From contig CALUQO010000008.1 in NCBI GenBank assembly GCA_944322935.1, forward strand, positions 1-64,000: 64,000 nucleotides of DNA. The letters run 5' to 3'. Shown here piece by piece: positions 14,979 through 43,058 of this stretch. A program made the translations under genes and the position numbers. The notes under the pieces are model-generated. The model was not told the origin of the DNA and did not search any database. It saw nothing but the letters and a program-made list of their open reading frames with translations. How positions within the stretch are numbered: position 1 is the stretch's first letter; each line of letters starts with the position of its first letter. Source of the stretch: Candidatus Gastranaerophilales bacterium (GTDB lineage Bacteria; Cyanobacteriota; Vampirovibrionia; Gastranaerophilales; Gastranaerophilaceae).

Positions 14979-15632
14979 ATGGACGAGCAAAGAAATATAA
15001 TAGAGATTTTGAGGGGATTAACGCAAGAAGATTTTAGAGGGCACGTTGATTTGCACATGCACTCAAATTTTTCTGATGGCAAATTAACCCCTGAAGAACT
15101 TTTAAAAGACGCACAGGACAAAGGTTACAGGCTTATTGCCATAGCTGACCATAACACGGTTGAAGCATACAAAAAAACAAACATACTCGAAAGCGCAATG
15201 GTTATAACCGCAATAGAATTCGACTGCTGGTATAAAGGTGTGCTTGTGCATCTGCTCGGCTACGGGGTGGATATAAATAACGAAGAGCTTTTAAAGCTTT
15301 GTGCTAAAACCAAAAAAGAAACGGAAGCCGATATTGTAAGGCTGTTTAATCACAGGCACCCCAAAGATGTAATAAAGGCAATACATTCTGCCGGCGGTGC
15401 TGCGGTGCTTGCGCATCCGGCATGTTACTGGGCTATTAATTTAGACCATTTTATAAAATCTTTAATTGATTTGGGCTTGGACGGTGTGGAATCATACTAC
15501 CCGTACAGACGTCACAGAGGGATAATTAAATTCCACAGTGCTAAAACTGTTCGAAAAATTGCGCAGAAGTATAAAGTTATAATGACCGGCGGGTCAGACT
15601 CACACGGTGAGATAGGGAGTATATTTCATTAG
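14979..15632 (+). CDS. PHP-domain phosphoesterase
   Basis: 217 residues of the polymerase-and-histidinol-phosphatase fold. Metal-binding motifs are DLHMHSNFSDG (~21-31), IAIADHNTVEAY (~52-63), a Glu in the AIEFDC block, AVLAHPACYW (~140) and GGSDSHGE near the end (~207). The order matches TrpH-like 3',5'-nucleotide/oligoribonucleotide phosphatases, but the protein is some 60 residues shorter than TrpH, with the C terminus stopping just after the last metal motif. Start ATG lacks a strong Shine-Dalgarno. The stop overlaps the convergent 72-aa gene by 4 bp. Confidence 0.85.
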   Translation: MDEQRNIIEILRGLTQEDFRGHVDLHMHSNFSDGKLTPEELLKDAQDKGYRLIAIADHNTVEAYKKTNILESAMVITAIEFDCWYKGVLVHLLGYGVDINNEELLKLCAKTKKETEADIVRLFNHRHPKDVIKAIHSAGGAAVLAHPACYWAINLDHFIKSLIDLGLDGVESYYPYRRHRGIIKFHSAKTVRKIAQKYKVIMTGGSDSHGEIGSIFH

Positions 15633-15847
15633 ATTTTTAGTACTTTGTGGATATAGTTAACATCATCTTTTATCTGTTTCAGAGTTTCATATAAAATTTT
15701 TGTAATTATTTGAGAGTCGTAGGGTTTGCAATCAATATCTTCTCGCAAACAACAGAGAAGTATTCTTGTTAAGCCTTCGGCATCAAATCTTTTGATTGCG
15801 ATATTGCACATTTTTTGTTTAATTGTGTTTAATTTTTTTGAGTTCAT
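15629..15847 (-). CDS. 72-aa helical protein, module partner
   Basis: No named family recognised. All-helical text without membrane segment; the core is GLTRILLCCLREDIDCKPYD. It has the same length (72) as the proteins at 41064 and 41729, with alignable landmarks: A-x-x-LT[KR]IL, then L[ER]-x-D and a second D seven residues later. It is divergent from a ribbon-helix-helix gene (15984), as those two are from XRE-like genes. A degraded relative lies at 16139-16192. It may be the effector or partner of a small two-gene system; function unknown. Confidence 0.6.
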   Translation of the reverse strand: MNSKKLNTIKQKMCNIAIKRFDAEGLTRILLCCLREDIDCKPYDSQIITKILYETLKQIKDDVNYIHKVLKI

Positions 15848-15879: not shown

Positions 15880-15982
15880 ATAGTTTGTAAACTATATAAT
15901 AACCATTTGCAATTTACTTTTCAAGATAACAAATATAAAATTTATAATAAGTTTACAAAAGAACTATAAAGGGTTTATAAAC
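15880..15982. promoter_or_regulatory. Divergent promoter region with two matching operator-like palindromes
   Basis: GTTTGTAAAC (15883-15892, inside the larger palindrome ATAGTTTGTAAACTAT) and GTTTATAAAC (15973-15982) are near-identical 10-bp palindromes 90 bp apart. They flank a TATAAT at 15943 and lie between the divergent 72-aa and ribbon-helix-helix genes. Such sites are typical of autoregulating ribbon-helix-helix proteins; binding is inferred. Confidence 0.5.
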
Positions 15983-15983
15983 T

Positions 15984-16136
15984 TTGACAATAAAAGAAGA
16001 AAATCAAAGATTTGTGGTTGTTATAGAAAAAGAAGTGATTGAGGCTTTTAAACTTCTTGCTAAAAAGGAAAATCGTTCTGCAAGTAATCTGGCTGCGACT
16101 CTGATTAAAAATTACGTAGAAAAACATTCTAAATAG
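15984..16136 (+). CDS. Ribbon-helix-helix (CopG/Arc-like) DNA-binding protein, 50 aa
   Basis: An open frame of 50 codons starting at TTG. The text RFVVVIEKEVIEAFKLLAKK followed by NRSASNLAATLIKNYVEKH reads as beta strand, helix, turn, helix, the pattern of CopG/Arc/MetJ regulators and of many antitoxins. AAAGGG lies 10 nt upstream. It is divergent from the 72-aa gene, with two matching palindromes between them. Antitoxin or autorepressor function is inferred from family and layout. Confidence 0.65.
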   Translation: MTIKEENQRFVVVIEKEVIEAFKLLAKKENRSASNLAATLIKNYVEKHSK

Positions 16137-16138
16137 TC

Positions 16139-16192
16139 TTAGAGTTTGCAATCAATATCTTTTCTTAAATCACAGAGAAATATTTTCGTCAT
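16139..16192 (-). pseudogene. Degraded fragment of the 72-aa module gene
   Basis: A 17-codon frame reads MTKIFLCDLRKDIDCKL and then stops. It matches the core of the 72-aa protein at 15629 (LTRILLCCLREDIDCKP), and the DNA of 16141-16185 is clearly similar to 15721-15767. The rest of the gene is missing. Confidence 0.55.
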
Positions 16193-36749: not shown

Positions 36750-36790
36750 AAACAGCCTCTTTATTTTAACGAAGAGGCTGTTTTTTTTAT
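36750..36790 (+). terminator. Terminator after ctpA, shared with the XRE-like gene
   Basis: AAACAGCCTCTT/AAGAGGCTGTTT (12 bp, 10-nt loop) followed by T8. Confidence 0.88.
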
Positions 36791-36993
36791 TTTTTTTCAA
36801 ATTTGATTAAATACCCTAATTTATCCAGAATCATTTCTAATTCATTAAAATTTGCTGTGCCTTTTTTTAATTTTGTTGAAAGATTTTGTACAGAGTATGG
36901 TTTTTGTTTTCTTTCGCTGATGTATTCAGCCAGCTGTGTTAATGTAACAGCATTGTCTATAGCAAGTTTCTTTATTTCGTTACCTAAGCTCAT
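36787..36993 (-). CDS. Small XRE-like helix-turn-helix protein, 68 aa
   Basis: Helix-turn-helix text TLTQLAEYISERKQKPYSVQNLS followed by KLKKGTANFNELEMILDKLG and YLIKFEKK. It shares the pattern L-x-x-[IL]-A-x-x-[IL]-S-E-[RK]-K-Q-K ... IL-D-x-LGY-x-I-x-F with the two module proteins at 41443 and 42111, so it is a third, more distant paralog. It has no 72-aa partner beside it. A TATAAT ends about 8 bp before the ATG and no Shine-Dalgarno is visible, so a leaderless message is likely. It converges on ctpA. Confidence 0.65.
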   Translation of the reverse strand: MSLGNEIKKLAIDNAVTLTQLAEYISERKQKPYSVQNLSTKLKKGTANFNELEMILDKLGYLIKFEKK

Positions 36994-39899: not shown

Positions 39900-40019
39900 T
39901 TAGGCAGGTAGACTTTAGCCTACTGATAACAAGCATCACCCGAAGGCAAAAATCGTGCAGTCATTCTTGTATATGTTACGTAATTCGATGACAGAAATAA
40001 TTTTTTCTTAACATAAATA
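39900..40019. repeat. Hairpin repeat and spacer
   Basis: GTAGACTTTAGCCTAC (39907-39922) is a variant of the GCAGACTTTAGTCTGC hairpin at 16463. The rest shows no gene. TATGTTACGTAATTCGATG near 39967 recurs in part at 41003 (TTACGTAACATATAC). Confidence 0.5.
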
Positions 40020-40427
40020 ATCAAAAAATCCGACCTTTGTAAGGACTCCACAAGCACGATTGAGTATCGTGCGCAGTGGAGGCAGGCTAAGCCAGATACG
40101 CAGTATCTGCGTGCCGTATAACAATTAAGAAACGAGTCTTGGAATACGAACGCTCCGGCGGAGTAACGTCCGCCTTCGCATGGGGCAAAGCCCCGTTCGA
40201 TTCCGCCAAACAACAACAAGCGAGGTTTGTTTGAGGGCTATGTAATTATAACAATCACTTTAATTTATCTAAGAAAAGCAATTTATATAGCCCGAGTTGC
40301 CGAGCACAGGTTTGCGCGAGTGAGCCGAGGCTGAAGCCTTACGCGTAGGCGGAAGGCGTAACGCCGTTTAAGGCGAACGAGTAAGACGTGTTACTTTCTG
40401 TATGAACGGAACATCAGGTCGGGAGTT
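40020..40427. repeat. Long inverted repeat, right arm (~405 bp)
   Basis: Reverse complement of 26115-26560 at very high identity, 13.5 kb apart, lacking the ~40-bp insertion of the left arm. Frames in it (for example 39920-40219 leftward) are matched by equally spurious frames in the left arm. Confidence 0.8.
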
Positions 40428-40640
40428 TGCCTTCTTTTTCGGCTGAGCCTGAGCGAAGCCTGAAAAATGGCTTCACGATAACTAAAGGATAAAACAAATA
40501 CATCATTGTCTTTTAATAGTGAACTTGGGCTCCACAATTACTATACGGCACGCAAAAGCTACGCTTTTGACTTAGCCTGCTTCTATTCAAAATGATACTC
40601 AATCATTTTGAACAGAGTTCTTTCCAAAGAATGGGTAACA
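40428..40640. repeat. Composite repeat with variable-stem hairpins
   Basis: Holds a GGCTTCACGA block shared with 25740, hairpin CAAAAGC-TAC-GCTTTTG (40553-40569) and TTCAAAATGAT-ACTCA-ATCATTTTGAA (40586-40612). These match by structure, not by stem sequence, the hairpins at 26434 and 26509. Confidence 0.65.
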
Positions 40641-40669
40641 AATAAAGCATAAATCTATGTTTTTATTTT

Positions 40670-40830
40670 TTCTTATGTTCATTTTCTTTCTTTGTATCTT
40701 GCAGGCAAAGAAAGAAAACGAACCATACCCTAAAGGGCATCCTGATTCGTACGGCTCGTACCTCGCCTACGACTCAAGCAAAGAAAGAAACCGGCGCTTA
40801 TCAAAAGAAACAGTAAAGTGTTTTATCAAA
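40670..40830. repeat. Inverted-repeat element with CCGGCGCT block
   Basis: TTTTCTTTCTTTG/CAAAGAAAGAAAA hairpin (40675-40718), extended by GTTC/GAAC, then AAGAAAGAAACCGGCGCT. It is homologous in inverted order to 26890-26983. The 100-codon frame across it is not credible as a gene. Confidence 0.6.
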
Positions 40831-41063
40831 GATTTTGCCACGACAAGCTGCGGTCAAAATCTTCTTAAAACACAACTGTTTCTAGCCAAAGTTCCATCGG
40901 GGCTCCGCCCCGAACCCCCCTACGGCTTACTTTGTAAGCCGTGTATAATAAAACAGTGAAAATCAAACTGTATAGAATAGTTGTAATAATTTTGGGAATC
41001 AAATTACGTAACATATACAAGGATGATATCTTTTTGTTGGGCTGAAAGCCCGAACTACAATCT

Positions 41064-41282
41064 TTATAATCCGAACATGTCTTTTTTAATATCCGAGAGT
41101 TTGTATTTTTGTTTGTCCGTATAGGCAGCAAGTGCAGAAGCAAGATAAAGGCGGTCAAGTTTGCGCATTTCGTAATTGTACTCTAAGGAGTCTTTGAGAA
41201 TATGTGCCAGACTGGCTATTATCCAGATGTCATTAATAGACTCTTCAAATTCTTTTTTTGTTTTTTCAAGATTTTTTACCAT
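41064..41282 (-). CDS. 72-aa helical module protein, unit 1
   Basis: No named family. Helical, with core DIWIIASLAHILKDSLEYN, then KLDRLYLASAL, and the C terminus YKLSDIKKDMFGL. Paralog of 41729 (the tail Q-K-Y-[KR]-L-S-[DN]-I-K-K-D-[MI]-F-G-L is nearly identical) and more distantly of 15629. AAGGA precedes the ATG. It is divergent from the XRE-like gene at 41443, with 160 bp between; that gap holds a GTTGTTTTT/AAAAACAAC inverted repeat (41324-41355). Confidence 0.68.
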   Translation of the reverse strand: MVKNLEKTKKEFEESINDIWIIASLAHILKDSLEYNYEMRKLDRLYLASALAAYTDKQKYKLSDIKKDMFGL

Positions 41283-41442
41283 AATAATTTCCTTTTTTTG
41301 TTAAGTTTTGTTTTTTAATAAACGTTGTTTTTGTATGTTTTCATTTAAAAACAACTTGTATCTTACAGTTAAAATTTAAAAATGTCAATTTTCTATTAAA
41401 AATATAAGATAATTATTAAAAAAGTGTTTTTAAGGTGTTTTT

Positions 41443-41655
41443 ATGTCTATAAGAAAAAAAATTAAAAATATTTTAACAAATGAAGATTTGACGATAAAAA
41501 AGCTCGCCGAAGCGTTATCTGAAAAAAAACAAAAACATATAAACCCTGATACAATTTCTCAAAAATTAATCAGAGATTCTATTAAATACAAAGATGTAGA
41601 AGAAATTCTTGACGTTCTCGGCTATGAGATAGTTTTTCAAAAGAAAAAGTTCTAA
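41443..41655 (+). CDS. Small XRE-like DNA-binding protein, unit 1
   Basis: 70 residues. Basic N-terminal helix (MSIRKKIKNIL), then a helix-turn-helix DLTIKKLAEALSEKKQ ... NPDTISQKLI and the C-terminal VEEILDVLGYEIVFQKK. This layout matches short XRE-family repressors of the 'LAEKLNxSxxNLSxKLKR' type. AAGGTG is just upstream. Paralog of 42111, with which it shares a 57-bp identical block at the 3' end (41589-41645). Probably represses the divergent pair; inferred. Confidence 0.7.
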   Translation: MSIRKKIKNILTNEDLTIKKLAEALSEKKQKHINPDTISQKLIRDSIKYKDVEEILDVLGYEIVFQKKKF

Positions 41656-41728
41656 ACATACGCTGATATGCTGACATAATCCGACTAAACCGGTTATTAT
41701 ATGGAAAATTTTTTCAATCAAACAATCT

Positions 41729-41947
41729 TTATAACCCGAATATATCCTTTTTAATGTTCGAGAGCCTGTATTTTTGTTTTTGTATTAAATCTTCAATAGT
41801 GCAAACAAGATAAACCGTATCGAGTCTGTTGATATTGTTATCATACTCAAGCGTTGCTTTTAGTATTTTTGTAAGACTTGCTATTTTCCATATTTCGTAT
41901 ACAGAATTTGAGAAATTGCGTTTTAGTTTTTTATTTCTTTTTATCAT
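41729..41947 (-). CDS. 72-aa helical module protein, unit 2
   Basis: Same length and layout as unit 1: EIWKIASLTKILKATLEYD, RLDTVYLVCTI, then KQKYRLSNIKKDIFGL. About 40-45% identical to 41064 by eye. The LTKIL...LEYD...RLD spacing also matches the 15629 protein. It is divergent from 42111 with 163 bp between. Function unknown. Confidence 0.68.
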   Translation of the reverse strand: MIKRNKKLKRNFSNSVYEIWKIASLTKILKATLEYDNNINRLDTVYLVCTIEDLIQKQKYRLSNIKKDIFGL

Positions 41948-42110
41948 CGTCAGCTCTTTGTTAAGATTTATTTTTGTTTATCGGACTAAATGTCCTATAC
42001 TGGATTTATTTTCATAAATTGTATACCCATTGTGATTATATGTCAACTAAGTGCCAAAAATGTACAATAAAGGACAATATTTCATTAAAATATAATTTAA
42101 AGGAGATACC

Positions 42111-42320
42111 ATGTCGGTTAAAAACAGAATAAAATCAATCCTGGCTTTAGAAGGGATAAAAATTAACGAATTGTCGGTTTTGTTAAAAGAAAAATACAAT
42201 AAAGATATTTTACCTAACACTCTTTCCAAGCAGTTAAACAGAGAGATTATAAGATTCAAAGATGTAGAAGAAATTCTTGACGTTCTCGGCTATGAGATAG
42301 TTTTTCAAAAGAAGCAGTAG
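42111..42320 (+). CDS. Small XRE-like DNA-binding protein, unit 2
   Basis: 69 residues, MSVKNRIKSILALEGIKINE then LSVLLKEKYNKDILPNTLSK and the shared VEEILDVLGYEIVFQKK. AAAGGAGA lies ahead of the ATG. The N-terminal two thirds differ widely from unit 1 while the last 57 bp are identical at DNA level. The gap to its divergent partner contains a GGAC-TAAAT-GTCC dyad near 41977. Confidence 0.7.
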   Translation: MSVKNRIKSILALEGIKINELSVLLKEKYNKDILPNTLSKQLNREIIRFKDVEEILDVLGYEIVFQKKQ

Positions 42321-42549: not shown

Positions 42550-42781
42550 ACTCACCGGCTCGATTATCCTACGTCGCTGTTATTATGTTGCGCCCTTTGG
42601 GCTTCGAGTTCTCGAACCCCGACGGGCTGCACATCGGCTTACGCGTTTTTCCGCCTGTCGAATCGAAGATTCGTTCGTTTCGTTAACTGCGTTAACTCAA
42701 CAACGGCGGCATTTGATTGTTCGGCTTTACGGTCTTTCAGTTCTGAAAGCCCTGCAAGCCTATACACCGCTTACGCGTTTT
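42550..42781. repeat. 232-bp direct repeat, copy 1
   Basis: Identical to 42827-43058 except one base (TTCTGAAAG versus TTCTGGAAG). It contains a chain of small hairpins: GCCC-TTT-GGGC, AGTTC-TC-GAACC, CGAATC-GAA-GATTCG, GTTAAC-TGC-GTTAAC. The 45-bp spacer between copies has CGTAACGTTACACCCG. Confidence 0.9.
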
Positions 42782-42826
42782 CGCTCCTGTGGGTATCTCG
42801 CCTTTGTTCGTAACGTTACACCCGTT

Positions 42827-43058
42827 ACTCACCGGCTCGATTATCCTACGTCGCTGTTATTATGTTGCGCCCTTTGGGCTTCGAGTTCTCGAACCCCGAC
42901 GGGCTGCACATCGGCTTACGCGTTTTTCCGCCTGTCGAATCGAAGATTCGTTCGTTTCGTTAACTGCGTTAACTCAACAACGGCGGCATTTGATTGTTCG
43001 GCTTTACGGTCTTTCAGTTCTGGAAGCCCTGCAAGCCTATACACCGCTTACGCGTTTT
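42827..43058. repeat. 232-bp direct repeat, copy 2, reaching the tsf stop codon
   Basis: Same sequence as copy 1. Its right end overlaps the tsf stop codon by two bases, so the repeat boundary coincides with the end of the coding sequence. Confidence 0.9.

Follow-up and report, generated by a model that had tools for sequence, protein, structure and literature searches.

Divergent regulator-target pairs with overlapping promoters are a textbook arrangement, in which the regulator controls the opposite gene through the shared intergenic region. Among published systems, the phage TF-smORF modules (Silpe et al. 2023, PMC10432266) consist of a small transcription factor beside a divergent, domain-less small protein; these phage modules have a common logic and little shared sequence, the factor activating the smORF and the smORF inactivating cI. 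The Streptomyces XRE-DUF397 and WhiJ-BldB pairs were proposed to be toxin-antitoxin systems and act as regulators (PMC10364602, PMC10294661).

Here, we analysed a 64,000-nt stretch of DNA (the window) from a gut-dwelling relative of cyanobacteria, Candidatus Gastranaerophilales, in which two diverged units stand side by side, each composed of a gene for a 72-aa helical protein (SHP) divergent from a gene for a DNA-binding protein of about 70 aa (HTH) (Table 1). The reading that we favour, and hold to be fairly probable, is that each unit forms a compact module of a dedicated local regulator (HTH) and a fast-evolving small helical cargo (SHP). In contrast to the textbook pairs, one HTH family is attached here to many small targets, in one order and with a stereotyped -35 element. 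The module resembles TF-smORFs in the divergent placement of a factor and a small protein, in its XRE regulators, and in having C.AhdI and C.Esp1396I as structural neighbours. It differs from them in that the checked sites are chromosomal, beside housekeeping genes (leuS/tsf, ahcY-gpsA, dxs-leuC, kdsC and a PitA-like transporter gene) and not in prophages, and in that the SHP promoter is near consensus, which makes repression more likely. With XRE-DUF397/WhiJ-BldB it shares many diverged copies per genome and a regulator with a partner of about 60-90 aa; there, however, the XRE protein has 250-300 aa with DUF5753 and the partner gene lies downstream, whereas here the regulator is a DNA-binding domain only and the genes are divergent. 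None of the 33 SHP members matched DUF397. TF-smORF modules are thus the closest published logic and XRE-DUF397/WhiJ-BldB the closest published multiplicity, and we file the module under neither.

Table 1. Positions of the features in the window
Feature	Position	Strand	Basis or remark
Third SHP gene of the window, 72 aa	15629..15847	-	Found independently by profile A1, E 0.0024
Promoter-like site of third SHP: TTGAAA - 17 bp - TATTAT	15896..15924	-	
Ribbon-helix-helix (RHH) gene, 50 aa, divergent from third SHP	15984..16136	+	PF07878 RHH_5, E 1.4e-8
SHP gene remnant	16135..16184	-	84% identity over 50 nt to part of 15629-15847
Further HTH-family gene opposite leuS	36790..36993	-	140-bp gap
Dispersed mosaic repeat block between leuS and module	39960..41060		140 partial matches in genome
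Unit 1 SHP gene, 72-aa two-helix-hairpin protein	41064..41282	-	ORF; AF2; same-geometry relatives
Unit 1 shared intergenic region, 160 bp	41283..41442		
Promoter-like site of unit 1 SHP: TTGACA (41383-41388) - 17 bp - TAAGAT (41360-41365)	41360..41388	-	
Unit 1 HTH gene, 70-aa minimal Cro/CI(XRE)-fold protein	41443..41655	+	
Unit 2 SHP gene, 72-aa two-helix-hairpin protein	41729..41947	-	ORF; unit 1 paralogue
Unit 2 intergenic region between SHP and HTH genes, 163 bp	41948..42110		
Unit 2 operator-like dyad GGACTAAATGTCC	41983..41995		
Promoter-like site of unit 2 SHP: TTGACA (42041-42046) - 17 bp - TACAAT (42018-42023)	42018..42046	-	
Unit 2 weak HTH-strand site: ATGTCA (42040) - 17 bp - TACAAT (42063)			Overlaps SHP -35 hexamer
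Unit 2 HTH gene, 69-aa minimal XRE-fold protein	42111..42320	+	Probable conversion of the 3' end by unit 1
Two identical 232-bp direct repeats beside tsf, 42550-42781 and 42827-43058	42550..43058		100% copies

The four open reading frames match the original prediction to the base in order, orientation, size and spacing, and the paralogy which it claimed for both proteins is borne out by identities between the units of 49% for SHP (E 1e-23) and 57% for HTH (E 6e-25). Comparison of unit 2 with its orthologues in two other species (G072 and G194) gave dS of 0.28-0.60 and dN of 0.01-0.03 for both genes (dN/dS approximately 0.04-0.06), so both are real and under purifying selection.

Structure prediction, suggested earlier as a check, gave a Cro/CI(XRE) fold for the smaller protein and a two-helix hairpin for SHP. 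The AF2/AlphaFold model of HTH has four helices (pLDDT 89.8), and its nearest solved folds are HipB (4z5h; Z 8.0, rmsd 1.9, 63 residues), DdrO (6rnz; Z 7.8, rmsd 1.6), TP901-1 CI and C.Esp1396I; matches at Z 7-8 may mean a common arrangement only, but the sequence profiles agree. Profile matches among 29 members of the family were to DUF6471 (PF20075) in 20, all weak (best E 3.6e-6), and to HTH_26 in five. The window proteins themselves scored 14.2 (P0002) and 13.3 bits (P0004) against DUF6471, below its gathering cut-off of 26.8 bits, and no named NCBIfam family was found for HTH. Judged by model and profiles together, HTH is a minimal Cro/CI(XRE)-fold DNA-binding protein, in line with its first description as small and XRE-like; in fold and size it is alike to DUF6471, to which it looks related without being filed as a member. 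Matches by phmmer to designed PPR and alpha-solenoid proteins were dropped, as no stretch passed the threshold alone. Relatives of HTH with 28-36% identity were noticed on two unannotated human-faecal phage scaffolds and in a Clostridioides phage (L210, L211, L212).

The unit 1 SHP is modelled as an antiparallel hairpin of helices 2-34 and 41-70 (pLDDT 92.8). Nothing significant was found for the family in Pfam, NCBIfam, PHROGs or PADLOC, nor in a sequence search of the PDB, and the protein stays as nameless as it was first called. Its fold matches (Foldseek, VIA) are generic hairpins; the model fits TraM (2q0o_C) with Z 9.0 and rmsd 1.4 over 70 residues, a score which hundreds of unrelated hairpins reach alike. 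Matches to TraM, CsoR/FrmR and seryl-tRNA synthetase arms were not taken as signs of kinship. By comparison of orthologue identities, SHP changes at 3-6 times the rate of its HTH: between unit 1 and the leuS-linked orthologue in G223, HTH is 94% and SHP 62% identical, and the corresponding values for two other module pairs are 80/33 and 81/47, dS being saturated beyond the closest SHP pairs.

The intergenic regions have a common anatomy. On the SHP strand, each of the 36 HTH-SHP regions has a site that departs from TTGACA-N16/18-TATAAT at no more than two bases (13% expected), and 29 of them have a perfect TTGACA (1.4 expected); the shuffles behind these expectations moved two-base blocks, full dinucleotide statistics not being kept. 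Perfect TTGACA was likewise found in 34 of the 44 regions between HTH and prepilin genes (1.1 expected, from the same shuffles), and on the regulator strand in none of the 80 regions of both sets. At HTH loci with other partners, a stricter test found the element in 41 of 74 (0.58 expected). In many regions a TATAAT-like element of the opposite strand lies 10-20 bp from the aligned TTGACA, so that the promoters are back to back. Perfect dyads number 21 in the HTH-SHP regions against 6.4 ± 3.0 in shuffles (0 of 100 as high) and 22 against 6.1 in the prepilin set; a perfect dyad with 5-bp arms is absent from 23 of the 36 HTH-SHP regions, and unit 1 is without a clear one. The G194 orthologue of the unit 2 dyad reads GGACTAGGTGTCC, with the arms kept and the centre changed. 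From one subfamily to another the dyads have different sequences, which is what separate specificities would demand.

The strength of the SHP promoter, the minimal DNA-binding protein encoded opposite to it, the dyads, and the exchangeability of the regulator described below together argue for local transcriptional control of SHP. HTH would be the dedicated local regulator, whose probable binding sites are the operator dyads of the 130-165 bp intergenic region. The near-consensus, sigma70-type promoter of the SHP gene stands with its -35 element back to back with the weaker HTH promoter, overlapped in some modules, and polymerase at one promoter may exclude polymerase at the other. Binding of HTH would normally keep SHP off, and release of the regulator would switch on strong SHP production; repression is the most likely mode, but HTH could instead activate SHP, by analogy with the phage TF-smORF modules (PMC10432266). 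The SHP hairpin, perhaps dimerising into a four-helix bundle, would act by binding another cell component. The module is kept at a few chromosomal sites, where it is duplicated and lost, and its regulator can give way to an unrelated one (XRE or RHH).

The analogy with TF-smORFs can be carried further, SHP then inactivating the repressor of a resident prophage or mobile element. The layout and logic are the same, the XRE structural relatives C.AhdI and C.Esp1396I are named in that work (PMC10432266), SHP changes fast, and HTH has relatives on phage scaffolds of faecal origin and in phages of C. difficile. We nevertheless consider it improbable, since all identified flanks are the housekeeping genes listed above and not prophages, no SHP relative was found in phage records or in a single-sequence scan of viral contigs, and a near-consensus SHP promoter should need no activator.

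A census of the gene opposite SHP covered 84 loci. HTH stands there in 35 of them, a canonical XRE gene in 9 and a ribbon-helix-helix gene in 3; the other 37 have no neighbour recognised as DNA-binding, and of these two are at a contig edge and at least one (L183) has an HTH-like ORF missed by the small profiles. The window's own RHH case at 15.6 kb is additional to this census. Loci of both families, SHP and HTH, were sampled by their likeness to proteins of the window, and the counts are not unbiased frequencies. The original prediction leaned on a DNA-binding neighbour: in the close SHP clade one is always opposite, in the distant clades often none, so the expectation holds for the former only. 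The 37 orphan SHPs fall mostly into syntenic groups, opposite dapB or beside a nusB-like gene (names read from sequence). The dapB clade includes L053-L055, L059, L159, L189-L191 and others, and in the loci of this type that were read SHP is followed by a conserved protein of about 85 aa (VLVFLKGTTAPLVLYVENP); the SHPs of L062, L065 and L066 lie immediately upstream of the nusB-like gene.

In the best SHP tree the partner label changes 15 times; branches with strong support demand few of these changes (2 for HTH, 2 for XRE) because 74 alignment columns resolve little. In G090, four SHP paralogues joined at 98 have three XREs and one HTH as partners, and the RHH-linked SHPs make one supported group, the third window SHP with those of three other species. 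Independently of any tree, replacement of the regulator itself is shown by the ahcY-gpsA site, which in four species occurs in three states: SHP opposite HTH (G005, G216), SHP opposite XRE-HTH (G194) and SHP opposite XRE (G223).

HTH, in turn, is not restricted to SHP. Among 115 HTH loci, the gene opposite is prepilin-like in 39, SHP in 19 and another small ORF in 14, and the Pfam N-methylation motif (N_methyl) was found in both prepilins tested; that the same family faces N-methylated prepilin genes points to a general local regulator. A prepilin-like gene with its own divergent HTH copy and the same -35 arrangement was seen in L015, L017, L034, L116 and about 40 other loci, possibly many separately switched pilins. 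Other HTH copies (L033, L038, L023) stand opposite an approximately 111-aa HAD-like protein (weak NIF/HAD match), and a 96%-identical relative of the HTH gene opposite leuS faces, in G043 (L121), a different 65-aa small ORF.

SHP might also be an antirepressor or co-regulator, which binds HTH and removes it from the shared operator in a feedback loop, as in SinI-SinR or TraM-TraR. Pair distances of HTH and SHP are correlated (mirror-tree r 0.75, 0 of 2000 permutations), so the modules are mostly inherited together; shared descent explains the correlation, and direct contact would too. The hairpin is compatible in shape with the antiactivator TraM, and the close clade always adjoins a DNA-binding gene. 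On the other hand, the TraM match is one among hundreds of generic ones, SHP outpaces the very protein which it is supposed to bind, it also stands beside XRE or RHH regulators that differ from HTH in family or fold, and 37 of the 86 SHP rows have no recognised regulator neighbour. This leaves the co-regulator unlikely in our judgement. The tolerance of three kinds of regulator, the orphan relatives and the faster change suggest instead that SHP would be cargo.

Much of the same evidence bears on a toxin-antitoxin pair, with SHP as toxin and HTH as antitoxin and autoregulator, which we regard as very improbable. In its favour are the small size of both genes, an XRE fold with HipB as its closest match, tandem arrays, several copies that have diverged and the fast change of SHP. 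However, the genes are divergent, each with its own promoter side, and do not form one operon; SHPs that lack an HTH partner are common, and they are conserved; XRE, up to a lone-XRE end state, or RHH takes the place of the supposed antitoxin; HTH proteins of the same family also pair with prepilins; and no significant match to a toxin or antitoxin family was found in PADLOC, Pfam or NCBIfam. Of the alternatives offered in the original prediction, the toxin-antitoxin or phage-defence-like pair is for these reasons, together with the housekeeping flanks, not upheld, and a compact regulatory pair maintained in several diverged copies is supported by the anatomy of the promoters, by the partner census and by the joint inheritance of the two genes.

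In the window genome both units and the repeat block follow leuS, whereas in G223 an orthologue of unit 1 and in G194 an orthologue of unit 2 each lie alone right behind leuS, without the block; the G223 contig ends 238 bp past the module, where unit 2 at window spacing should have begun to show. The repeat-free junction in these two species makes the repeats look like later insertions and rules out that repeats and units form one inserted mobile island. The 232-bp repeat has 17 partial matches in the genome, its second copy ending at the 3' end of tsf; synteny on the tsf side is rearranged within the genus and uninformative. An island bounded by repeats, as first described, is therefore correct in that repeats lie on both sides, but they are no module boundary, the left block being absent in two relatives. 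Tandem duplication also needs care: the two units are paralogous, but modules like unit 1 and modules like unit 2 are already distinct in different species, each standing alone behind leuS elsewhere. The HTH genes of the two units are identical at 58 of 60 bases in positions 148-207 against 83 of 147 before, and the unit 2 orthologues in G072 and G194 differ in this tail, which in unit 2 was probably overwritten by unit 1 via gene conversion. A second, decayed array at 15.6-16.2 kb holds SHP, RHH and an SHP remnant; in G194 (L171) the order is SHP-RHH-degenerate SHP-HTH, the degenerate copy being longer than the window remnant and adjoining the HTH gene.

Most of the named records in which near relatives occur are MAGs of Candidatus Gastranaerophilales, and the SHP profile matches 92 of 286 genomes of this group. 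In phylum-wide samples both families are confined to it, barring one doubtful match for SHP and one genome for HTH, of which up to 20 copies per genome were found. Tentatively, and with rather less assurance than a single module deserves, a minimal 70-aa HTH family with about 20 copies per genome, repeatedly attached to fast-evolving small proteins and prepilins via a stereotyped back-to-back promoter, may constitute a Ca. Gastranaerophilales toolkit of separate local switches, and the SHPs a new family of small helical effectors able to change regulator.

Obtained results turn two nameless protein families into a widespread, order-specific regulatory module of uncultured gut bacteria, in which gene regulation is almost unstudied. 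The replacement series at a fixed site is unusually clean evidence that SHP needs control, and not control by one particular protein, which argues against calling every pair of a small protein and an XRE regulator toxin-antitoxin. From the common promoter geometry follows a prediction that can be tested directly at roughly a hundred loci, many prepilin genes among them.
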